Assembly (NCBI GenBank): GCA_030144965.1
Contig: JAMPUU010000026.1
Location: 248,001 to 312,000 of the forward strand
DNA: 64,000 nt
Source of the DNA: Nitrospira sp. BO4
GTDB taxonomy: Bacteria; Nitrospirota; Nitrospiria; Nitrospirales; Nitrospiraceae
Direction: 5' to 3'
Shown here: piece after piece, positions 2,358 to 60,455 of the stretch
How positions within the stretch are numbered: the first letter of the stretch is position 1
Layout: each line of letters opens with the position of its first letter
Position numbers and translations under genes: made by a program
The notes under the pieces: generated by a model
What the model saw: the letters and a program-made list of their open reading frames with translations, nothing else
Databases searched by the model: none
What the model was told of the DNA's origin: nothing

Positions 2358-4316
2358 ATGATGACTGAGAGGTTTGTCCCCACGTCCGGTTTACTTGCAG
2401 ATGCGCCGCCGAAGTCCATGTCAGAATCAAAGCCTCAAAGGAAAATCCTCGGAGCCTGTGTGGCCGAAGGGGGCGTGCAGTTCAGGGTTTGGGCCCCAAA
2501 GGTCGAACGTGTAGACGTACTATTCGGGAACGGCCCCACGTTCTCGCTGGAAAAGGATGAGGGTGGTTACTTCAGCCGAACGATTTCATCCGCCATCCCC
2601 GGGATGATGTATCGCTATCGATTGAACGGTGGAAGTGATTTTCCCGACCCTTGTTCACGCTTCCAACCGGAGGGCCCTCACGGTCCTTCGCAGATCGTCG
2701 ATTCCTCCACCTATCGCTGGCGAGATCAGGGTTGGCCCGGTGTTAGGATGGCGGGACAAGTCCTGTACGAATTGCATATTGGGGCATTTACTAAGGAAGG
2801 CACGTTCGATGCAGCTATTCAGGAATTGGACGGGCTGAAGCGTCTTGGGATCACCCTGCTCGAACTCATGCCCGTTGCCGAATTTCCCGGACGTTGGAAT
2901 TGGGGATATGACGGCGTCTGTCTGTTCGCTCCGTCGCACAGGTATGGAGATTATGATGCCTTGAAACGCTTCGTGGATGCCGCCCACATGAGGGGAATCG
3001 GTGTCATTCTAGACGTCGTCTATAACCATTTCGGGCCGGATGGAAACTATTTGTCGGCATTCAGCGATGACTATGTGACCGACCGGTATCCGAATGAGTG
3101 GGGCCAAGCCCTCAATTTCGATGGGCCCAGGTCAGAGGGTATGCGCGACATGGTGATTCAGAACGCATGCTATTGGATCCAGGAGTTTCGACTGGACGGC
3201 CTTCGGCTCGATGCAACCCACGCGATTCATGATGCCGGTGCAATGCATGTCTTAGGGGAGTTATCCCTGGAGACTCGGCGTACAGCGGGGCAACGGTCGA
3301 TCGTGCTGATCGCCGAAAGTGAGCAGCAAGACATGCGGGCTCTTCGATCGGTCGATGAAGGCGGGTGGGGACTCGATGCCATTTGGAGTGACGACTTTCA
3401 TCACACCTGTCGCGTTGCTGCGACCGGCCGGCGGGAGGCCTATTACACGGATTATCTCGGGGCGCCTCAGGAATTGGTGTCGGCCGTGAAACGAGGGTTC
3501 TTGTATCAAGGACAGCGGTATCACTGGCAAGACAAGGCCCGGGGGACGGTAGTCGGCGCCGAACCGGCGAGCAGTTTTGTCTTTTATTTGCAGAATCATG
3601 ATCAAATCGGGAACTCGTTGATGGGAGGCCGGCTCCACACGATGACCAGTCCAGGTCGGTACCGGGCGATAACTGCCTTCTGGCTGCTCGCGCCTCAGAC
3701 CCCCATGCTGTTCATGGGGCAGGAATTCGCCTCCTCGGCCAACTTTCGCTACTTCGTGGATTTTGCTGGGCACGACCTCGGCCCTAAGGTGCGCAAAGGG
3801 CGACAAGAGTTCTTAAGCCAGTTTCCCAGTTACGCTTCGGAGGATGCCCAAGCAGCTATGTTGGATCCGAGTGATCCTTCGGTCTTTGAGCAATCGAAAC
3901 TGGATCGGCATGAGCGGCAAGAACACGCGCCGCTGTATCGTCTGCACCGCGATTTACTACGCTTGCGCCGCGAAGACGCGGTGTTCTCGGCGCAAGCACG
4001 GGATCGGCTCGACGGCGCCGTATTGGGTTCTCATGCGTTTGTAATCAGATACTATGAAGAAACGGGCTGCGATCGCCTCCTTGTCGTCAATCTTGGTGCC
4101 GATCTCCATCTGGTTCCCGCCCCTGAGCCGATGCTGGCGCCGCAGCAGACGGGGTCTTGGAGCCTGGTGTGGTCGAGCAATCACCCTCAGTATGACGGTC
4201 CCGGTACGGTGAATCCGTTGACCAAAAAAGGGTGGCATATACCGGCCGAGTCCGCGTCGGTGCTTCGAATCGAGCACGATGTTGGTGCCACAGTGCGCGA
4301 GCAGGACCATGGGTGA
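2358..4316 (+). CDS. treZ: Malto-oligosyltrehalose trehalohydrolase
   Basis: Releases trehalose from maltooligosyl-trehalose, the second step of the TreY/TreZ route from glycogen. The 652-residue product has an N-terminal CBM48/E-set domain (FRVWAPKVERVDVLF), then a GH13 barrel. Nucleophile Asp285 lies in DGLRLDATHAI, acid/base Glu320 in LIAES, and the NHDQIGN motif carries the third acid. The start is ATG 2358 or 2361, with AGGA just upstream; an in-frame GTG at 2316 is less likely. The stop overlaps the next gene by eight bases, indicating translational coupling with the debranching enzyme. The partner treY is about 47 kb away in the same window, next to glgC. Confidence 0.95.
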   Translation: MMTERFVPTSGLLADAPPKSMSESKPQRKILGACVAEGGVQFRVWAPKVERVDVLFGNGPTFSLEKDEGGYFSRTISSAIPGMMYRYRLNGGSDFPDPCSRFQPEGPHGPSQIVDSSTYRWRDQGWPGVRMAGQVLYELHIGAFTKEGTFDAAIQELDGLKRLGITLLELMPVAEFPGRWNWGYDGVCLFAPSHRYGDYDALKRFVDAAHMRGIGVILDVVYNHFGPDGNYLSAFSDDYVTDRYPNEWGQALNFDGPRSEGMRDMVIQNACYWIQEFRLDGLRLDATHAIHDAGAMHVLGELSLETRRTAGQRSIVLIAESEQQDMRALRSVDEGGWGLDAIWSDDFHHTCRVAATGRREAYYTDYLGAPQELVSAVKRGFLYQGQRYHWQDKARGTVVGAEPASSFVFYLQNHDQIGNSLMGGRLHTMTSPGRYRAITAFWLLAPQTPMLFMGQEFASSANFRYFVDFAGHDLGPKVRKGRQEFLSQFPSYASEDAQAAMLDPSDPSVFEQSKLDRHERQEHAPLYRLHRDLLRLRREDAVFSAQARDRLDGAVLGSHAFVIRYYEETGCDRLLVVNLGADLHLVPAPEPMLAPQQTGSWSLVWSSNHPQYDGPGTVNPLTKKGWHIPAESASVLRIEHDVGATVREQDHG

Positions 4317-6369
4317 AGCTCCCGAGCCATCTCTGCCCGTTATCACCCTGCCGTGGACGCGAAGTGGGGATATCAACGCCCTGCTGTCGCGCGAATGGCT
4401 CGTGACGAACGGACTTGGGGGGTACTCGTCGACGACGCTCATGCAAGTGGCAACGCGCCGCTATCACGGCATATTTGTCCCGGATTTGCCTTCCCCCAGA
4501 GGCCGCACGATAGTTATCCCGCGCCTGGACGAGGAACTGCAGATAGGAAGTGCCACCGTGCGCTTGAGCGGAGCCGAGTATGCAGACGGACGTCTGGATA
4601 CCGACATTGTCGACCACCTCACAAGCTTTCGCCGAGAGTGGCAAACGCCGACCTGGCGGTTTTCATTTCAAGGCCGGGATTTGGTCAAGCGGATCGTCAT
4701 GCCCTATGGGCAGAATTCCGTGTATGTGGAATATCGATTGGAAGCGGGAGAACCGGTCACCCTTCGTCTGCGGCCGTTCGTCACCTTTCGCATGCCCGAC
4801 GCCCCCCTCAGCGAGACGCGTAAGGCGCCGTTCCTCCTGACCATGGTCAGAGGACGATATGAGATGCCGCTCTGCGAAGGAGTGTCTCCATTGAAGCTTT
4901 GCCTGAGGCCGCAAGCGGGCGTGTTTGTGGCCGATGCCTCCATCAGCCATGGCGTGTCGTATCGAGTGGATCGCGATCGAGGTTCTCCGCATGTCGAGGA
5001 CCTGGAGAGTCCCGGATACTTCACCGTGCGGTTGGATCGGGAACATCCGATATCCTTCGTGGCAAGCATGGAAGCTTGGGAGAATCTTCAATACGATGCC
5101 GATGCCATATTTGCCGCCGAACAAGAGCGGCTGCACAAACTTGTCGTTCAAGCGGATCGGCTTCCCACCGACCGTCATGAAACGCTTCTGACGTTGGCGG
5201 CGGATCAGTTCATCGTGTTTCCCGGAAGCCGGATGGAAGAGCATGCGTTGGCGCAGGCCTCCGGAGATGAAGCGCGGACGGTCATTGCAGGGTATCACTG
5301 GTTCACCGACTGGGGGCGAGACACGATGATCAGTTTGGAGGGACTCACCTTGTGCACCGGTCGGTATCGAGAGGGCCGCGCGATTTTGCGTACCTTTGCG
5401 CGGTACATCAAGGACGGGCTCATCCCCAATCTGTTCCCCGAAGGCGAGCGCACCGGACTGTATCATACGGCGGATGCCACCTTGTGGTTCTTCCATGCCC
5501 TCGATCGGTATTACGAGGTGACGGGTGACCGGGATACCCTGATGGTGCTGTATCCGGCCTTGAAAGAGGTGGTCGAGCATCATTTGAGGGGAACCCATTT
5601 TGGAATCGGCGTCGACGAGCGCGACGGTCTCTTGAAGACCGGAGCGCCGGGCTATGCGTTGACCTGGATGGATGCCAAAGTAGAGGACTGGGTGGTCACA
5701 CCACGGCGCGGCAAGCCGGTGGAGATACAAGCGCTATGGTACAACGCGATTCGACTGATGGGGCGGTGGGCCGAGGATTTGAGAGAGCGATCGGACCGTT
5801 GGGACGGCTTGGCGAAACACATCGAGGATTCGTTCAATGATCGTTTTTGGTACGCAACCGGTGGGTATCTGTACGATGTCGTGGACGGTGAGGCGGGCGA
5901 TGATGCGAGTCTCCGGCCCAATCAGGTGTTCACCATGTCCCTTCGATATCCTATCTTGCGGAAAGCGCGATGGATGCCGGTCTTGACCGTCGTCCGTGAG
6001 AAATTGCTGACGCCGTTCGGACTCCGTAGTTTGGCGCCGGGTCACCGCGACTATAAGCCGATGTATTTCGGAGATCTTCGCGCGCGTGACGCGGCCTACC
6101 ATCAAGGGACGGTATGGGCATGGTTGATCGGCCATTTCATCGATGCGTCGTTGAAGGCGGGTGTGGACCGGGCAGAGTGCCGGCGATTCTTGGACGCCTT
6201 TGACGTCTACTTGTTCGACGACGGGATGGGAACCGTGAGCGAGATATTCGATGCCGAGGCGCCCTTCGCCCCGCGTGGATGTGTCGCGCAGGCCTGGAGT
6301 GTGGCGGAGATACTGCGGGCCTACCATGCCACGCAACCCGAAAATATCAGCGGCATAAACAGAGGCTAA
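4309..6369 (+). CDS. Glycogen debranching enzyme, GDE/amylo-alpha-1,6-glucosidase type (GH133)
   Basis: A 686-residue protein with two parts: an N-terminal GDE_N beta domain (REWLVTNGLGGYSS, RRYHGIFVP) and a C-terminal six-hairpin glucosidase domain with the family signature HWFTDWGRDTMISLEGL and a late YHQGTVWAWLIGHF segment. It would remove alpha-1,6 branch residues from glycogen. The start at 4309 follows an AGGA site and overlaps the treZ stop. The window also holds glgX, a GH13 debrancher, so two unrelated debranching enzymes coexist. Pairing with treZ suggests that it feeds linear glucan to trehalose synthesis, which is an inference from context. Confidence 0.9.
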   Translation: MGEAPEPSLPVITLPWTRSGDINALLSREWLVTNGLGGYSSTTLMQVATRRYHGIFVPDLPSPRGRTIVIPRLDEELQIGSATVRLSGAEYADGRLDTDIVDHLTSFRREWQTPTWRFSFQGRDLVKRIVMPYGQNSVYVEYRLEAGEPVTLRLRPFVTFRMPDAPLSETRKAPFLLTMVRGRYEMPLCEGVSPLKLCLRPQAGVFVADASISHGVSYRVDRDRGSPHVEDLESPGYFTVRLDREHPISFVASMEAWENLQYDADAIFAAEQERLHKLVVQADRLPTDRHETLLTLAADQFIVFPGSRMEEHALAQASGDEARTVIAGYHWFTDWGRDTMISLEGLTLCTGRYREGRAILRTFARYIKDGLIPNLFPEGERTGLYHTADATLWFFHALDRYYEVTGDRDTLMVLYPALKEVVEHHLRGTHFGIGVDERDGLLKTGAPGYALTWMDAKVEDWVVTPRRGKPVEIQALWYNAIRLMGRWAEDLRERSDRWDGLAKHIEDSFNDRFWYATGGYLYDVVDGEAGDDASLRPNQVFTMSLRYPILRKARWMPVLTVVREKLLTPFGLRSLAPGHRDYKPMYFGDLRARDAAYHQGTVWAWLIGHFIDASLKAGVDRAECRRFLDAFDVYLFDDGMGTVSEIFDAEAPFAPRGCVAQAWSVAEILRAYHATQPENISGINRG

Positions 6370-18317: not shown

Positions 18318-20801
18318 ATGAGCACCAAGGACTTTCTAACCGAAGACGGCGCATATCCAGACCCCACCCATCTCACTGCCGGGGCCGATGGCAACCCACC
18401 GATGGTTGTTCCTGCAGGTCGATCCCATCGATCCATTTTCCAAAGAGCGGCGGCAATCCCTCCCGCCCTGCTTACGGCAGGCGTGCTCGCGATAGCCACG
18501 TTGCTGCGCATCGCGCTCACACCCGTGTTTGGGAGCGGCTATACCTTTATCACGTTCTATCCTGCCACGATGTTCAGCACAGTCATCGCCGGCTGGCGAT
18601 ACGGACTTGCAACGGCCTTGGCCGCTGCGATTTTGTCGACACTATTGTTTATCGATCCCTTCAGCAATGTCGAGCATGCGGCGGCAATCGGGGTGTTTCT
18701 CGCAGTCGATGGGCTCATGATCGTCATCGCGGATTGGACTCGCAGGGCCCGGCGACAATCGGAGCTGGAAGCCTCCCTGATCCGAGCGCGGGAAGGCGAA
18801 CTGCGCGAAGAATTCCGGAAGCGGACGGAAGTGGCAGCGCGGACCAGCGGGGAGCAACTGCGCTCCATACTTGATCGGGCGCCGGCAACGATTTTTTTGA
18901 AGGATCGCGCAGGACGCTATCTCTTTTTCAACGACCAGTTCGGCCATTTATTCCACCTTGGGAGAGAGCACGCTTATGGCAAGACTGATAGAGAGCTGCT
19001 TCCCACCGAGTTGGCGGACCAATTTGTCGAAAACGATAGACACGTTTGGGAATCCGGCACATTGCTGACCATCGAAGAATATGTTCCGCAAATGGACGGG
19101 CGGCATACCTCGCTGGTTCAGAAGTTCCTGCTGCGCGATGCCGACGGCCATCCTTACGCGTTATGCGGGATTGCGCTGGACATCACCGATCGTCTGAAGA
19201 TGGAAGCAGCGATCCGTGCCGGTGAGGAACGGCTGCAATTGGCGCAGACGGCCGGAGGCGTCGGCACCTTCGATTGGGATATCGTGGCGCAGCGCGGGGT
19301 GTGGTCCCCTGAGCTGGAACGAATATGGGGTTTGCCACCCGGAAGCTTCGAGGGAAGTTATGCCGCGTGGCGTCGCTTGGTTTATCCGGAAGATCTCGCG
19401 GCCGCTGAAGCGGGAGCGGCAAGATCCATGGAAGATCCTAGCAAGGCTCAGGAATATGAGTATCGCATCATGCGCCCGGATGGAGCCCTTCGATGGATCT
19501 ACGCGAAGGCCAAGACGTTATGTGATGCAGAGGGCCGGCGGATTCGCATGGTAGGCGTCAACATGGATATTACCGACAGAAAAGAAGCCCAATTGCGCCT
19601 TGAACGGTCCACTGAAGAATTGGAACGAGAGGTCGAGGTGCGCACGAAGGAACTCGTGCAGTCGCAGAACCGGCTGCGTGCCATGGCGACCGAACTGAAC
19701 CTGACCGAGCAGCGTGAACGCAAACGACTTGCCACAGAGCTGCATGATCATCTGCAACAGATGCTCGTCTTCGGTAAGTTGACCATTGGACAGGGTAAGC
19801 AGGCGGCAATCGGGATACCCGCCTGCGAAAAAGTTCTCAATAAAGTCGACGAAATGTTGTCTGATGCTCTGAGCTATACCCGCACGCTCGTCTCGGAACT
19901 CAGTCCTCCGGTGCTGCGTGACCATGGGCTCATTGCCGGACTCAAATGGCTGGGCGAGTCCATGAAGAAACATGAGCTATCGGTGGCGGTCATCGTTCCG
20001 GAGGACAATGGGCTCAAGCTGCCGGAGGACCAAGAGATCCTTTTGTTTCAATCCGTGCGGGAACTGTTGATCAATTCGTCCAAGCATGCGGGAGTAGGGC
20101 ATGCCACAGTGAGGCTAGTCCAGTATGATGACTGTTTGGAGATTACGGTGCGCGACGAGGGAAAAGGTTTCGACCTCACTGCTGCTGGCACTCCTGGCAG
20201 CGGACTCTCCTCCAAGTTTGGGCTCTTCAGCATTAGAGAACGTATGAGGGCGCTGGGAGGGTCTTTCGCGATTGACTCGGCACCGGGCCACGGGACGACG
20301 GCAACGATCATGCTGCGTGTGACCAGACATGCTGAGACAGCAGTGCTGAATCCTGCAGCCCTGGAAGTGCAAGATCGGGCCTTTGGCATTCAACTCTCAA
20401 CGCACCAGAAGAGCACCGCCACTCGCGTTCTGTTGGTGGACGACCACGCCATGGTTCGGCAGGGCCTTCGTTCCGTGCTGGATGCCTACAAGGATCTTCA
20501 AGTAGTCGGGGAGGCGCGGGATGGGGAAGAAGCTGTGAAATTGGTCCAAGATCTGCGGCCTAGAGTCGTCGTGATGGACATCAACATGCCGAAGATGAAC
20601 GGGATTGATGCCACGGCGCGCATTAAAGCCAAGTGGCCCGGGACCATCGTCATCGGCATCTCGGTCAACACCGGCGACGACAACAGCGACGCCATGAAAC
20701 GAGCCGGAGCAACCACCGTCCTCACCAAAGACAAGGCTGTTGACCAGCTTCACGATGCGATTATTCACGAAGTCGGCGCATCAACCTTCAATCTCACGTG
20801 A
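18318..20801 (+). CDS. Membrane hybrid histidine kinase with C-terminal NarL-type receiver and no HTH
   Basis: An 827-residue sensor. Residues about 45-145 form a KdpD/DUF4118-like membrane domain with about four helices. Two PAS domains follow (about 175-300 and 300-420), then a HisKA_3 dimerisation helix with His476 in ELHDHLQQM, an HATPase domain (RELLINSSKHAG, DEGKGFDL, GLFSIRERM) and a receiver with Asp754 (VVVMDINMPKMNG). The receiver is of NarL type, but the DNA-binding HTH is absent. The start at 18318 has AGGGG seven bases upstream. From the HisKA_3 on, it closely resembles the second half of 56535-60455. The signal is unknown. Confidence 0.88.
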   Translation: MSTKDFLTEDGAYPDPTHLTAGADGNPPMVVPAGRSHRSIFQRAAAIPPALLTAGVLAIATLLRIALTPVFGSGYTFITFYPATMFSTVIAGWRYGLATALAAAILSTLLFIDPFSNVEHAAAIGVFLAVDGLMIVIADWTRRARRQSELEASLIRAREGELREEFRKRTEVAARTSGEQLRSILDRAPATIFLKDRAGRYLFFNDQFGHLFHLGREHAYGKTDRELLPTELADQFVENDRHVWESGTLLTIEEYVPQMDGRHTSLVQKFLLRDADGHPYALCGIALDITDRLKMEAAIRAGEERLQLAQTAGGVGTFDWDIVAQRGVWSPELERIWGLPPGSFEGSYAAWRRLVYPEDLAAAEAGAARSMEDPSKAQEYEYRIMRPDGALRWIYAKAKTLCDAEGRRIRMVGVNMDITDRKEAQLRLERSTEELEREVEVRTKELVQSQNRLRAMATELNLTEQRERKRLATELHDHLQQMLVFGKLTIGQGKQAAIGIPACEKVLNKVDEMLSDALSYTRTLVSELSPPVLRDHGLIAGLKWLGESMKKHELSVAVIVPEDNGLKLPEDQEILLFQSVRELLINSSKHAGVGHATVRLVQYDDCLEITVRDEGKGFDLTAAGTPGSGLSSKFGLFSIRERMRALGGSFAIDSAPGHGTTATIMLRVTRHAETAVLNPAALEVQDRAFGIQLSTHQKSTATRVLLVDDHAMVRQGLRSVLDAYKDLQVVGEARDGEEAVKLVQDLRPRVVVMDINMPKMNGIDATARIKAKWPGTIVIGISVNTGDDNSDAMKRAGATTVLTKDKAVDQLHDAIIHEVGASTFNLT

Positions 20802-30291: not shown

Positions 30292-30307
30292 CTAGGTTGT
30301 CTCCTAG
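30292..30307 (-). promoter_or_regulatory. CTAG-N8-CTAG element, exact site
   Basis: CTAGG-N6-CCTAG, a perfect inverted repeat. It lies 93 bp upstream of the lipoprotein start at 30199 (minus) and 125 bp upstream of the DUF2934 gene (plus), so it could serve either or both. Confidence 0.65.
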
Positions 30308-45413: not shown

Positions 45414-46055
45414 ATGTATAGTGCACATATTTTGCTCGCCGACGATCACCCCCTTGTACTGGAGAGCATGAAGCAATTGCTCGAGCCGACCTTTTCAGTG
45501 GTGGGAACCGCGCGCACAGGACAGGAGGTGCTCGATGCCGCTAAGGAGTTGCGACCGGATATCGTGCTCCTCGACGCGAATATGCCGGGAATGAGCGGAT
45601 TTGAAGCGGCGCGAAAGCTCAAGTCCCTGGTTCCCACCGTGAAGGTCATATTTGTGACGATGCTTACCGAGGCTGTGTATGTGAGCGAAGCATTTCGTGC
45701 GGGAGCGGTGGGCTATGTGCTGAAGCAGTCGGCCTCGGATGAACTGCACGAGGCGGTCAAGAGCGCCATGATGAACCGGCGGTACGTGTCTACCAAGCTC
45801 AACGTGGAGATTCGCGAAGCCATGGAGTGCGAATGGTCGAGGCCGGAAGGGTATACGACCGACTTAACCCAGCGACAACGTCAAATTCTTGTCCTGCTTG
45901 CGAATGGATGTACCACCAAGAGTATCGCCAAAGATCTTAATATTTCGATGAAGACCGTCGAGTTTCACAAGGCCAACATTACCCGCAAACTTGGTGTCCG
46001 TACCACATCCGATCTGATTCGCTTTGCGCTCGCCTCGGGTATAACGGAATTGTAA
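45414..46055 (+). CDS. NarL/FixJ-type response regulator
   Basis: A 213-residue transcription factor with a receiver (Asp10/Asp11, phosphoacceptor Asp54 in IVLLDANMPGMSG, Lys in VLKQS) and a LuxR-type HTH (LTQRQRQILVLLANGCTTKSI, KTVEFHKANITRKLGV). LuxR/NarL HTH dimers bind inverted repeats. AGGAG precedes the ATG. Its own upstream region carries an exact CTAG element. It converges with a paralogous regulator (46117-46779) 61 bp away. The cognate kinase is not adjacent; the HisKA_3 kinases of this window are the class that usually serves such regulators. Confidence 0.93.
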   Translation: MYSAHILLADDHPLVLESMKQLLEPTFSVVGTARTGQEVLDAAKELRPDIVLLDANMPGMSGFEAARKLKSLVPTVKVIFVTMLTEAVYVSEAFRAGAVGYVLKQSASDELHEAVKSAMMNRRYVSTKLNVEIREAMECEWSRPEGYTTDLTQRQRQILVLLANGCTTKSIAKDLNISMKTVEFHKANITRKLGVRTTSDLIRFALASGITEL

Positions 46056-46116: not shown

Positions 46117-46779
46117 TTAGTGAATGGTGATGAGACCGTTTGCAATGGCATATTTCGTCAGCTGAGCAGCGGACCGCATACCAAGCTGTCTCATGATCCG
46201 TGTCTTGTGAAACTCAACAGTCTTGGTCGATAGGTTCAGCACCGCCGCGACTTCCTTGATGGACTTGCCTTCGGCCACGAGCTGCAGCACTTCCCGTTGG
46301 CGCAGGCTGAGGGTATGCGAGAAACCTCCCTCCTCTGCCTCGCTTTCAGTGGGGAGCGGATGCATCGCTTGCTCGACTACGCTTTGCGGGACGATGGGGG
46401 AGATATAAGTATTGCCTTTGAGCACCTCCTTGATGGCCTGTACCAGCTCATCTCCGACCGACTGCTTGAGCACATAGCCTGACACCCCGATGCGTAACGC
46501 TTCCATCACATAACTCGACTCCGAGTGCATCGTGAGAACGATAACTTTGACGGATGGGTGGTGCTTCCGGATTTGACGAGACGCGTCCAATCCATTGAGC
46601 AGCGGTAGGGAAATGTCCACGATCGCGATGTCCGGCGGACATTCCTCGATGGCTTTCAGCAGCGCTCGGCCGTCCGAAAGGATGCCTAAAAGGGCAAATT
46701 CAGGCTCTAACAGTTTCTGAAGGCCTTCCGCGACAAGGACGTGATCATCCGCCAGTAGGATGGTTGGACGTGTATTCAT
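46117..46779 (-). CDS. NarL/FixJ-type response regulator, paralogue of 45414
   Basis: A 220-residue regulator with receiver Asp55 (IAIVDISLPLLNG) and a LuxR-type HTH (LSLRQREVLQLVAEGKSIKEV, KTVEFHKTRIMRQLGM). It shares with 45414-46055 the start (ILLADDH-LV), the YVLKQS loop and the HTH recognition helix KTVEFHK, so both may recognise related sites. GAGG lies eight bases before the ATG. A variant CTAG element lies 57 bp upstream. Confidence 0.93.
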   Translation of the reverse strand: MNTRPTILLADDHVLVAEGLQKLLEPEFALLGILSDGRALLKAIEECPPDIAIVDISLPLLNGLDASRQIRKHHPSVKVIVLTMHSESSYVMEALRIGVSGYVLKQSVGDELVQAIKEVLKGNTYISPIVPQSVVEQAMHPLPTESEAEEGGFSHTLSLRQREVLQLVAEGKSIKEVAAVLNLSTKTVEFHKTRIMRQLGMRSAAQLTKYAIANGLITIH

Positions 46780-47404: not shown

Positions 47405-48193
47405 TCATGGTTTGGCTGCCAGGGCTTGATGAATCATGTCGTACAACTGATCTACCGCGGCTTCTTTCGTGAGGAGGGCCGACGCGCCTGCCTGAGTCAT
47501 CGCTGCGTAGTTGTCGTGACCCGCGTTCACCGACAATCCAAGAACGATCGTCTGGGGATATCGCGATTTGATAACTGCGGTGGCATCGACCCCATTCATT
47601 TTCGGCATATTCAGGTCCATGACGACAACCGAAGGCCGTAAGTGTTCGACATAATCAAGCGATTCCTGCCCGTCGGCCGCCTCACCCACCACTTCGATAT
47701 CGGAATAGCCCTCCAAAAGGCTGCGTAAACCTTGCCGCACCATCGAGTGATCGTCCACCAACAAAACACGGATGGGTGGCTTCTGATGGGGCACGTCAGT
47801 GCTAAATTCAGAACTGCTCGGTGGTGTGGCAAGCTGAGTGTCTGAGGCCGTCGTGCTTGGCTCGTCGCCGGGTGTTAAGCGCGCATCACTATTGCCTGGG
47901 GCAAGCACCGGCCCATACAGGTCATGACTTGGTGTGATCAGGGATACCGTCGCGCGATCTGTCGGCGGCTGTAGTTCAACGACCAAGGACCGTGTGTAGT
48001 TCAGCGCTTGTATCAGAGCCTGATCGAGATCATTCAGAAGCCCTGCAGCCTTCTTGTCAGGCACCAACGGCGCAGCCTGGCGGAGCTGCATGCGCATCAC
48101 AATGAGCGATTGAGTCAACTGGTCATGCGGAGCAGGAATCCGATCCTGTGATTGCACATGTTCCCTGGTTTTGATAGTCACAACTTGTTCCAA
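47405..48193 (-). CDS. Kinase-like protein with a DHp histidine helix and NarL-type receiver but no ATPase domain
   Basis: A 262-residue protein. Residues 18-78 align with the HisKA_3 dimerisation domain of the two hybrid kinases here: PHDQLTQSL with His23 for ELHDHLQQ, then QALNYTRSLVVELQPP for DALQYTRTLVAELSPP. The ATP-binding domain (about 140 residues) is absent and replaced by a Ser/Thr-rich linker (80-138). A receiver with Asp193 (VVVMDLNMPKMNG) follows, with no HTH. It may act as a phosphotransfer hub or a dominant partner of the kinases. The start is probably TTG 48193. An exact CTAG element lies 55 bp upstream. Confidence 0.78.
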   Translation of the reverse strand: MEQVVTIKTREHVQSQDRIPAPHDQLTQSLIVMRMQLRQAAPLVPDKKAAGLLNDLDQALIQALNYTRSLVVELQPPTDRATVSLITPSHDLYGPVLAPGNSDARLTPGDEPSTTASDTQLATPPSSSEFSTDVPHQKPPIRVLLVDDHSMVRQGLRSLLEGYSDIEVVGEAADGQESLDYVEHLRPSVVVMDLNMPKMNGVDATAVIKSRYPQTIVLGLSVNAGHDNYAAMTQAGASALLTKEAAVDQLYDMIHQALAAKP

Positions 48194-48248: not shown

Positions 48249-48264
48249 CTAGGCAAACCCCTAG
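48249..48264 (-). promoter_or_regulatory. CTAG-N8-CTAG element, exact site
   Basis: CTAGG-N6-CCTAG, a perfect inverted repeat; on the minus strand CTAGGGGTTTGCCTAG. It lies 55 bp upstream of the ATPase-less kinase-like gene and points to it. Confidence 0.7.
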
Positions 48265-56534: not shown

Positions 56535-59500
56535 GTGACCAGTAAGCTGGCATCCCTTTATCCGATGCAAGACAGACCATTTGACCCTCAGAACATCAGT
56601 TTTCTCGCCGGCGGCGGCGAGATGGGCGCGCGGATGCGCGCCTTCGATTTCTCTACGACGCCATTGGGGCCTGTTTCGGCCTGGCCACAAAGCTTGCGCT
56701 CGGCCGTGAGTATCTGCCTGAACAGCCGCTTTCCCATCGTCCTTTATTGGGGCAAAGAATTTGTCTCGCTCTACAACGATGCCTATATTTCTATTTGGGG
56801 AGAAAAGCATCCCTGGGCGCTCGGTAAACCGTTTGAAGTGGCCTGGGCCGACATCTGGGACGCATTGGGGCCCGTGCTCAAAGGTGTCATGGAGACCGGG
56901 ATTCCTTCCTGGTCCGACGATCAACTGCTCGTCATGCAGAGGCATGGCTATGTAGAAGAGACCTATTTCACCTTTTCCTTCGGGGCCGGTCGCAACGAAC
57001 AAGGAGAGGTTGCCGGTATTTTTTGCGCCGTGGCCGAGACAACGCAGCGCGTGCTGCATGAACGCCGTCTCGCCGTCCTGAGAGAGCTGACCGGTGCTGC
57101 GAAAAGTCCTCAGGAGGCGGCTACGCTGGCTGCTCAGATCCTCGACGGACAGGCCGACATTCCGTTTGCATTGGTATATCTGTTGGAGCAAGAGGGCCGA
57201 ACTGCGCGGCTCGCCGCCCACACGGGAATTCCGTCCAACAGTTGTGCTGCGCCGCCGGTCGTGGATATTGCCACCGACGATGCCGGTGCCTGGCCGTTGG
57301 CGCTGGCCATCACGGCCGGCGCGCCGACGATTGTGACGGACTTGGCCCGGCGATTCGCCCCGCTGCCGGGCCGACCATGGCCTGAACCTGCGCATACCGC
57401 CATCGTGTGGCCTCTTCAAAAATCAGGACAATCGGAGTCGGCGGGGCTGCTCATCCTCGGAGTCAGCCCGCGACGACGGCTTAATGAGTCGTATCAGCGG
57501 TATTTCGAACTGGTCGCGGGCCACGTCGCAACCATGCTCGCCAACGGCCGCGCCTACGAAGATGAGAAGAATCGCGCCGAAGCATTGGCCGAGATCGACC
57601 GCGCCAAGACCGCATTCTTTTCGAACGTGAGCCACGAATTGCGCACGCCGCTCACGCTGATGCTCGGACCACTGGAAGATTTGAAAGCGCGGTTTGGCCG
57701 ATCAACGTCCTCGCTCGACGCCTCGCAGTATCAACAGATCGATTTGGTTCATCGCAACGGGCTGCGTCTTCTCAAACTGGTAAACACCCTGCTGGATTTT
57801 TCGCGGATCGAGGCCGGCCGGGCGCAGGTGGTGTATGAAGAGACAGAGCTCGCCGCGTTCACGACCGACCTCGCGAGCGTATTTCGCTCCACCATCGAGA
57901 AGGCCGGTTTATCGCTGATTGTCGATTGTCCTCCCCTGCCTGAGCCCGTGTTTGTGGATCGCGACATGTGGGAAAAGATCGTCTTGAATCTGTTGTCCAA
58001 TGCCTTCAAGTTCACGTTCAGCGGCGAGATCGAGATTGCGCTGCGACCAAGCGGAAAACATGTGGAACTTTCCATTCGCGATACAGGAACAGGCATTCCG
58101 GACGACCAACTCGGAAAGATCTTCGAGCGGTTCCATCGCGTCTCCGGCTCACAAGGCCGTACCCACGAAGGCACGGGCATCGGTCTGGCTCTCGTTCAGG
58201 AGCTGGCGCAACTTCATGGCGGCTCCGTCTCAGTAGACAGCGCCTATGGGAAGGGGAGCACGTTCAGAGTGTTCATTCCCCTAGGCAAGAGCCATCTACC
58301 GTACAAACATATCGGCGCCGCTCGAGGCAAGACATCGACGGCTATGGGCGCTACGCCCTTCGTGGAAGAAGCTGCGCGTTGGCTGCCATCCGAGGAAGTT
58401 TCTGAGTCAGGAAGTCAGAATGCTGAGCTCTCGATCGGGTCTGACTTCTCTCACTCATCACTCACCGCTCGTTCGCGCGTCCTCCTGGCCGACGACAATG
58501 CCGACATGCGGGAGTACGTGAGCCGATTGCTGCGTAGCCGATTCGAAGTACAAACGGTTGCCGATGGACAGGCCGCATTGGACGCGGCGCGTGCCAATCC
58601 ACCGGAGGTGGTCCTTACCGACATTATGATGCCTCGGCTGGATGGCTTCGGTTTGCTCCGTGCGTTGCGTGATGATCCAGCGACCAAGACCATTCCGGTC
58701 ATTCTGCTGTCGGCGAGAGCCGGCGAGGAATCCCGTGTTGAGGGTTTAGAGCAGGGCGCGGACGACTATCTCATCAAACCGTTTAGCGCCCGCGAATTGC
58801 TGGCGCGCGTCGAGACGCATGTGAAAATGGCTCGCATGCGGCGGCAAGCCATGGCCTTGCTTCACGAGAGTGAAGTTCGTTTTCGCAATTTCGCTGATAC
58901 CGCGCCGGCCATGCTGTGGGTCACCGAGTCCGATGGGGCCTGCTCGTTTCTCTCGCGCGTGTGGTACGAATATACGGGACAAACCGAAGCGGAAGGACTC
59001 GGAGTCGGCTGGTTGAAAGCCGTACATCCTGATGATCGTAAAGAATCCGGGCGCATCTTTCTGGACGCGATTCGGAGGCATGTGCCGTTCACCTTGGATT
59101 ATCGGCTGCGCCGGGCCGATGGCGAATACCGCTGGTGCATCGATACCGGCCGGCCGCGCTTCGATGATCAGGGTACGTTTCTTGGTTACGTCGGCTCGGT
59201 CATGGACATCACCGAACGGAAGCTCGTCGAAGAGGAGTTCCATCGGTTGAATAACGAGCTGGAGACCCGTGTACGGGAACGGACGCAAGAGCTGTGGACC
59301 TCACAAGAACGGCTGCGGGCACTGGCCACGGAATTGAACCTTACCGAACAACGAGAACGGAAACGGGTGGCGGCTGAACTCCACGACCATCTGCAGCAGA
59401 CGTTGGTGCTGGGCAAATTGAAAGTGGGACAAGGCAAACGGGTTGCGGCCGGGATACCGGCTGTGGCGAAGATTTTGGACGAAACGGACGCCGTTTTTTC

Positions 59501-60455
59501 CGATGCGCTGCAATACACCCGAACTCTCGTGGCGGAACTGAGCCCTCCGGTGCTGCGCGATAATGGGCTTGTGGCCGGCCTGAAGTGGCTGGGTGAATCC
59601 ATGCGAGAGAAGCATGGCATCGCGGTGACTGTCACCATGTCTGATGACAGTCGCCTCCGGCTTCCGGAAGACCAGACCCTGCTCATGTTCCAGTCAGTGC
59701 GCGAACTGCTGATCAATTCCTGGAAGTATGCCGGGACGGGAGCAGTGGCCGTTTCACTCGAGCACAGCGACGGAGTACTGAGGATTACGGTCAGCGACAA
59801 TGGCCCGGGGTTCGATCTTGCTGCGGCTCTTGCTGGTACATCGAGCGGCGCTGTCTCGTCAAAGTTCGGACTGTTCAGTATCCGAGAACGTATGAAAGCA
59901 CTTGGTGGAAGCTTTGAGGTCCACTCGGGTGCAGGGCAGGGTACCAAGGCGACCCTCGTGCTGCCGCTCATCTACAAAGACATTGAAGGGCGTCCGGTCC
60001 TGAATGCCCAGGCAAGCAGAAAAGAACTCATAGGGCAGCAGAAGTACGCGCATGATTCAGCGCGTCATGAGGGGCCATCTATTCGTGTGCTTCTCGTCGA
60101 CGACCATAAGATGGTGCGTCAGGGGTTGAGAACTATCTTGGAAGGATATGCCGACATTAACGTAGTCGGCGAAGCGATCAATGGAGAAGAGGCCGTCGCG
60201 TTGGTCGATCAGCTTTATCCGGACGTGGTGGTGATGGATCTCAACATGCCGAAGATGAATGGGATCGAAGCGACGCGGCTCATCAAAGCGTCCCATACTC
60301 AGGTCCAAATAGTGGGCCTTTCGGTCAATATGGATGGAGAGGCGCATGCTGCTGTAACGGTGGCCGGAGCCCATGCCTTGCTGACGAAAGAGGCGGCCGC
60401 GGACCAGCTGTATGACGCTATCCATCAGGCGCATATGACCTTGAATAAGACATGA
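56535..60455 (+). CDS. Cytosolic hybrid kinase with two complete transmitters and two receivers
   Basis: A 1306-residue protein. In order: an N-terminal PAS-like domain (about 30-170), a GAF domain (about 180-330), a classical HisKA with His367 (SHELRTPL) and HATPase to about 590, an OmpR/CheY-type receiver with Asp696 (VVLTDIMMPRLDG), a PAS/PAC domain (about 770-900), a HisKA_3 with His950 (ELHDHLQQT) and a second HATPase (RELLINSWKYAG), and a NarL-type receiver with Asp1235 (VVVMDLNMPKMNG). No transmembrane segment and no HTH. The start is GTG 56535, or the Met about ten codons on. The second half closely resembles 18318-20801. Two kinases of different class in one chain imply an internal relay or integration of two signals. 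Confidence 0.88.
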   Translation: MTSKLASLYPMQDRPFDPQNISFLAGGGEMGARMRAFDFSTTPLGPVSAWPQSLRSAVSICLNSRFPIVLYWGKEFVSLYNDAYISIWGEKHPWALGKPFEVAWADIWDALGPVLKGVMETGIPSWSDDQLLVMQRHGYVEETYFTFSFGAGRNEQGEVAGIFCAVAETTQRVLHERRLAVLRELTGAAKSPQEAATLAAQILDGQADIPFALVYLLEQEGRTARLAAHTGIPSNSCAAPPVVDIATDDAGAWPLALAITAGAPTIVTDLARRFAPLPGRPWPEPAHTAIVWPLQKSGQSESAGLLILGVSPRRRLNESYQRYFELVAGHVATMLANGRAYEDEKNRAEALAEIDRAKTAFFSNVSHELRTPLTLMLGPLEDLKARFGRSTSSLDASQYQQIDLVHRNGLRLLKLVNTLLDFSRIEAGRAQVVYEETELAAFTTDLASVFRSTIEKAGLSLIVDCPPLPEPVFVDRDMWEKIVLNLLSNAFKFTFSGEIEIALRPSGKHVELSIRDTGTGIPDDQLGKIFERFHRVSGSQGRTHEGTGIGLALVQELAQLHGGSVSVDSAYGKGSTFRVFIPLGKSHLPYKHIGAARGKTSTAMGATPFVEEAARWLPSEEVSESGSQNAELSIGSDFSHSSLTARSRVLLADDNADMREYVSRLLRSRFEVQTVADGQAALDAARANPPEVVLTDIMMPRLDGFGLLRALRDDPATKTIPVILLSARAGEESRVEGLEQGADDYLIKPFSARELLARVETHVKMARMRRQAMALLHESEVRFRNFADTAPAMLWVTESDGACSFLSRVWYEYTGQTEAEGLGVGWLKAVHPDDRKESGRIFLDAIRRHVPFTLDYRLRRADGEYRWCIDTGRPRFDDQGTFLGYVGSVMDITERKLVEEEFHRLNNELETRVRERTQELWTSQERLRALATELNLTEQRERKRVAAELHDHLQQTLVLGKLKVGQGKRVAAGIPAVAKILDETDAVFSDALQYTRTLVAELSPPVLRDNGLVAGLKWLGESMREKHGIAVTVTMSDDSRLRLPEDQTLLMFQSVRELLINSWKYAGTGAVAVSLEHSDGVLRITVSDNGPGFDLAAALAGTSSGAVSSKFGLFSIRERMKALGGSFEVHSGAGQGTKATLVLPLIYKDIEGRPVLNAQASRKELIGQQKYAHDSARHEGPSIRVLLVDDHKMVRQGLRTILEGYADINVVGEAINGEEAVALVDQLYPDVVVMDLNMPKMNGIEATRLIKASHTQVQIVGLSVNMDGEAHAAVTVAGAHALLTKEAAADQLYDAIHQAHMTLNKT

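Follow-up and report, generated by a model that had tools for sequence, protein, structure and literature searches.

A DHp-receiver protein of Nitrospira derived by deletion from a hybrid histidine kinase, at a locus with repeated kinase loss

The window analyzed here is a stretch of 64,000 nucleotides from Nitrospira sp. BO4. On its minus strand, at 47405..48193, an open reading frame runs for 262 codons without a stop and encodes a DHp remnant followed by a receiver. The start codon of this frame is uncertain from the sequence: by eye, the TTG at 48193 directly adjoins GGAAAG, and codon 5, a GTG at 48181, is an alternative start. Pfam matched HisKA_3 at residues 23 to 78 (25.7 bits for a cutoff of 24, covering positions 10 to 67 of the 68 in the model) and Response_reg at residues 143 to 254 (89 bits), and no match to HATPase_c was obtained in the 262-residue protein. 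An assembly error was considered and ruled out, since a second genome of the same species (G091), assembled in two contigs, encodes the identical protein. The two genomes show 19 differences in all over approximately 11.5 kb, and none of those listed falls in the gene.

A CTAG-N8-CTAG palindrome is found at 48249..48264, 56 bp upstream of the TTG start, confirming the exact CTAG element that the first-pass annotation had described in the promoter. Eight such elements occur in the window (at 30292, 41762, 42000, 45017, 45249, 48249, 50074, and 56488), with a consensus near ACTAGG-N6-CCTAGT, where shuffled sequences give an expectation of 0.14; the genome as a whole contains 50. The elements are apparently mostly intergenic, and they are likely to be binding sites of a regulator, perhaps one of the NarL/FixJ type. 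Among relatives, a similar element lies upstream of a receiver-only gene in G003 (L070:7137), and no exact element was found directly upstream of the intact kinase of G024 or of the truncated genes of G016, G010, and G001, all of which are described below.

Two NarL/FixJ-type response regulators, at 46117..46779 on the minus strand and 45414..46055 on the plus strand, serve as syntenic markers. This regulator pair was used to track the locus through 79 genomes of the genus, several of the relatives being drafts, and was present in 17 of them. In G024, a single-contig genome, the syntenic position is occupied by a hybrid kinase of 561 residues with the architecture PAS_3-HisKA_3-HATPase_c-Response_reg. 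Aligned with this kinase, the window protein begins with the coil that follows the PAS domain (residues 1 to 19) and a PAP junction, continues with the DHp (residues 23 to 77) and a short piece of the ATPase domain, and ends with a linker and the receiver. It has no PAS domain, is short of approximately 19 residues in DHp helix 1, and lacks almost the whole ATPase domain; the alignable gaps measure 57, 180, and 177 nt, all multiples of three. Judged by this alignment, the gene is a deletion derivative of a hybrid kinase. The annotation had taken an intact ATPase domain in close relatives as evidence against its reading, and the syntenic orthologue has one.

The DHp-receiver form was found only in the species of the window. 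The annotation had proposed looking for the same architecture in related genomes, and the search across the genus turned it up in no further species, the other close DHp matches lying in open frames of at least 388 residues. Outside Nitrospira no close orthologues were found, and the scan of genome contigs otherwise gave receiver matches.

The first 19 residues (48137..48193, minus strand) are a coiled-coil remnant, the coil that followed the lost PAS domain, and align with LQQAVNLKTTQLVQSQERL of the intact orthologue. They end at the deletion junction, the PAP of residues 20 to 22 (48128..48136, minus strand), where the 57 nt of DHp helix 1 are gone in frame. The deleted residues lay just N-terminal of His23 and included the EQRERKRLAxEL block that is nearly invariant before the histidine in the alignment of intact kinases. 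The window protein therefore has no full-length helix 1 with its conserved ERxRLAxEL stretch, and it now reads I-P-A-P-H-D up to His23. Residues 23 to 77 (47963..48127, minus strand) form the DHp remnant. His23, encoded at 48125-48127, is the phospho-acceptor histidine of the H-box on helix 1, and together with Asp24 it aligns with all intact relatives. The DxxxQ motif that follows the histidine is also present, as D24 and Q28.

The predicted structure of the window protein shows a break at residues 16 to 21, with pLDDT below 50 at residues 16 to 19, followed by helices at residues 22 to 43 and 47 to 74 that form a hairpin with fair confidence. The same prediction method gives a single helix of 78 residues (143 to 220) for the G024 orthologue, with His200 inside it. 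Because the break falls directly before His23 where the orthologue has a continuous helix, His23 is predicted to stand at the start of a helix and not within one. The helix pair that the annotation regarded as kept is thus retained from His23 onward, with D24 and Q28, and is lost in the part of helix 1 that precedes the histidine.

The remnant keeps 12 of the 13 strictly conserved DHp columns. It is 71% identical to the G024 orthologue, compared with 82% for the receiver, and pairs of intact kinases with similar receivers diverge to a comparable extent; its dN is twice that of the receiver, with dS saturated. Relaxed constraint on the remnant was considered and set aside: the identity and the leave-one-out counts are approximately within the range of intact kinases, and dS is saturated. 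With the conserved columns kept and the divergence within this range, degeneration of the retained DHp is not demonstrated.

Following the DHp, a strip of about 15 residues, TDRATVSLITPSHDL (47918..47962, minus strand), lies between the in-frame deletions of 180 and 177 nt and aligns with the middle of the ATPase domain, the gap placement around so short a strip being dependent on the alignment. It is all that is left of the HATPase_c domain with its N and G boxes. The linker that comes next (47777..47917, minus strand) is disordered, with pLDDT below 50 over residues 79 to 124 and 126 to 133, and aligns weakly with the linker of the G024 orthologue itself. The description of an ATPase domain replaced by a linker is accordingly right about the loss of the domain, as indicated by the Pfam result, and needs amending for the surviving strip and for a linker that is partly the ancestral kinase-receiver linker.

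The receiver occupies 47408..47776 on the minus strand, with its phospho-acceptor Asp193 at 47615-47617. Its active-site set is present (D147/D148, D193, S221, and K243), the fold is predicted at pLDDT above 90, and none of the 23 strictly conserved receiver columns is changed in the window copy. Between the copies at the locus the receiver dN/dS ranges from 0.05 to 0.38, the lower values being rough since dS is saturated. These results bear out the earlier view of an intact receiver with Asp193 in a gene that is not simply decaying, since the receiver is both intact and constrained. The protein is not a single-domain receiver, as the DHp hairpin of approximately 55 residues precedes the domain. 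The genome of the window has many stand-alone receivers from this family, in open frames of about 145 to 183 residues.

Four relatives have receiver-only copies at the locus, each with a different breakpoint. The copy of G016 is a protein of 190 residues made of the tail of the ATPase domain and the receiver; that of G010 has the coil joined directly to the receiver and, upstream in a different frame, a PAS fragment; that of G001 has the N terminus of the kinase joined to the receiver; and that of G003 is the receiver alone. This means that, of the two residues whose conservation the annotation had stressed, the receiver aspartate is found in all orthologues and His23 is not conserved. In G028 the flanking genes are the same and both the kinase and the receiver are gone, which shows that the receiver is dispensable in that genome. 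The draft copy of G085 (L015, 1281-2975) has an intact kinase part and two close TAA codons in the receiver, which represent either real inactivation or a draft error.

Seven receivers of the locus form one clade in the receiver tree (100/98), and the tree of the regulator pair, on which the receiver-only state needs four changes, is compatible with it. Since the kinase persists within the clade of G024, G085, and G016, and the other copies carry different leftover pieces, these comparisons imply that the kinase must have been lost at least three times (on the side of the window and G003, on the side of G010 and G001, and in G016), and perhaps five times. A related multi-PAS HisKA_3 kinase is found at the locus in G086, G031, and G018 (L124, L126, and L127), with the receiver as a separate open reading frame directly behind it, and G012 has an eroded version of this kinase. 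At the same locus of G012 (L125, approximately 4300-4700), half a receiver of the family is apparently fused, in frame, with the beginning of a glyoxalase-like open reading frame. The receivers of these four genomes fall outside the clade of seven, so that the gene may be a different kinase.

The protein of the window is probably a stand-alone receiver derived from a hybrid kinase, with a putative function and with a DHp remnant that is inert or at most dimerizing. By the alignment with the syntenic orthologue, the ancestor was a soluble PAS-HisKA_3-HATPase-receiver hybrid histidine kinase adjoining the two NarL/FixJ-type regulators, from which in-frame deletions took the PAS domain, the half of DHp helix 1 that precedes the histidine, and almost the entire ATPase domain. 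Without an ATP-binding domain, the protein cannot autophosphorylate. The receiver is the part that is maintained in the window gene, since its active site is intact, its dN/dS is low, and it is kept in four other, independently truncated copies; that sister species shed this kinase at this position by differing routes makes it probable that the receiver is worth keeping. It would be phosphorylated by a different HisKA_3 kinase in the cell and may act as a phosphoryl sink, as a connector, or through partner binding, and the DHp hairpin would be vestigial, either inert or contributing at most to dimerization. Two observations count against this reading: G028 lives without the receiver, and the DHp remnant is not visibly degenerate, which fits either a DHp that is still used or a recent deletion.

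That the DHp remnant is active is possible, though rather unlikely. It would work as a dimer, or with the DHp of another kinase, and would dephosphorylate the NarL/FixJ-type neighbors or relay phosphate to them through D24/Q28 and His23, with its own receiver as a sink or control. The intact HDxxxQ, the conserved columns, and the predicted hairpin are all in its favor, as is the precedent of the HisKA_3 protein DesK, where the glutamine one turn after the histidine is the key phosphatase residue and the histidine itself is not essential (PMC5231405). In DesK, however, the upstream coiled coil sets the phosphatase state (PMC5231405), and in the window protein the helix before the histidine is deleted and IPAP stands in its place; moreover, no other species of the genus has the architecture, and the four sister copies have no DHp. 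The heterodimer, hub, and phosphatase roles that the annotation had offered are therefore weakened by the loss of this helix segment. The retention of His23, D24, Q28, and 12 of the 13 conserved DHp residues keeps these roles conceivable, and phosphatase or relay activity through the DxxxQ residues is possible. A further proposal, which we consider unlikely, takes the DHp remnant and the receiver together as a stripped kinase, a compact ATP-independent device that would dephosphorylate the NarL/FixJ-type neighbors or relay phosphate for them, or would jam other HisKA_3 kinases by heterodimerizing, and that would mark a step on a path taken repeatedly in evolution from hybrid kinases to receivers on their own.

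The gene could also be on its way out, a pseudogene without present function in which the receiver is so far undamaged. The locus has been eroded stepwise in several lineages, G028 has lost the gene completely, and the draft copy of G085 carries two stop codons within its receiver, all of which would agree with this. Yet the alignable deletions are all multiples of three, which unselected deletions would be by chance in about 1 case in 27, the 262 codons are open, the receiver is constrained, and a promoter-type CTAG element is similarly placed upstream of the receiver genes of the window and G003, so that this explanation appears quite improbable. There is very little to recommend the reverse order, in which the full kinases arose later by fusion from ancestral receiver-only and DHp-receiver forms, even though the genus often has stand-alone receivers of this family and, in one sister group, the receiver is encoded by its own open reading frame behind the kinase. 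The copies of the window, G010, G001, and G016 each retain other pieces of one and the same kinase (N terminus, PAS fragment, coil, DHp, ATPase strip, and ATPase tail), which fusion leaves unexplained and which largely refutes this order of events.

The kinases at 18318-20801 and 56535-60455, which the annotation had put forward for heterodimerization, have a DHp of a different subtype (HDHLQQ...). Just outside the window, 20-odd kb off, lies a kinase with receivers at both ends (L006, 319-1920; G000:C26, approximately 317.3-318.9 kb). The DHp of this double-receiver kinase is the closest to the window remnant within the genome, and it is the better candidate partner on that comparison. Kinases resembling it occur near the locus in several relatives.

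In the literature, we found no report on this locus or on a DHp-receiver protein without an ATPase domain. The origin of stand-alone receivers is usually inferred through distant comparisons. In this case a single genus has, at one locus, an intact hybrid kinase, intermediates with pieces of the kinase, receivers with nothing else, and complete loss. Two questions thereby become testable: whether a receiver that has shed its kinase persists because it has its own function, and whether a DHp lacking its ATPase domain still does anything. The protein itself derives from a known kind, and the repeated loss of the kinase is of more interest than this one gene.

The known kind is the HisKA_3 hybrid kinase with a C-terminal receiver, represented in the same genus by the G024 protein, which is the ancestor type by its similarity (71% in the DHp and 82% in the receiver) and by its position at the same locus with the same two regulators. 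Such kinases have a PAS domain, the whole of helix 1, and an ATPase domain, whereas the window copy has no PAS domain, half of helix 1, and no ATPase domain. In Spo0B and ChpT a full, dimeric DHp is followed by a degenerate CA-type domain, and neither protein has its own receiver. The window protein resembles them in its DHp hairpin with a phospho-acceptor histidine and in that kinase activity is not expected, and differs from them in its own receiver, the absence of a CA domain, and the truncated helix 1. With the HisKA_3 kinase-phosphatases DesK and NarX it shares the H-D-x-x-x-Q, but it has neither their ATPase domain nor the segment of helix 1 before the histidine. Receivers of hybrid kinases act as intermediaries in relays (PMC9981736), and single-domain receivers are established as hubs or sinks, as with MrrA and LovR (PMC5964349). 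Although the window protein differs from MrrA and LovR in the DHp remnant and long linker before its receiver, in having no FATGUY motif by eye, and in that phosphotransfer is putative here, it is like them a receiver without an output domain that probably depends on other kinases.
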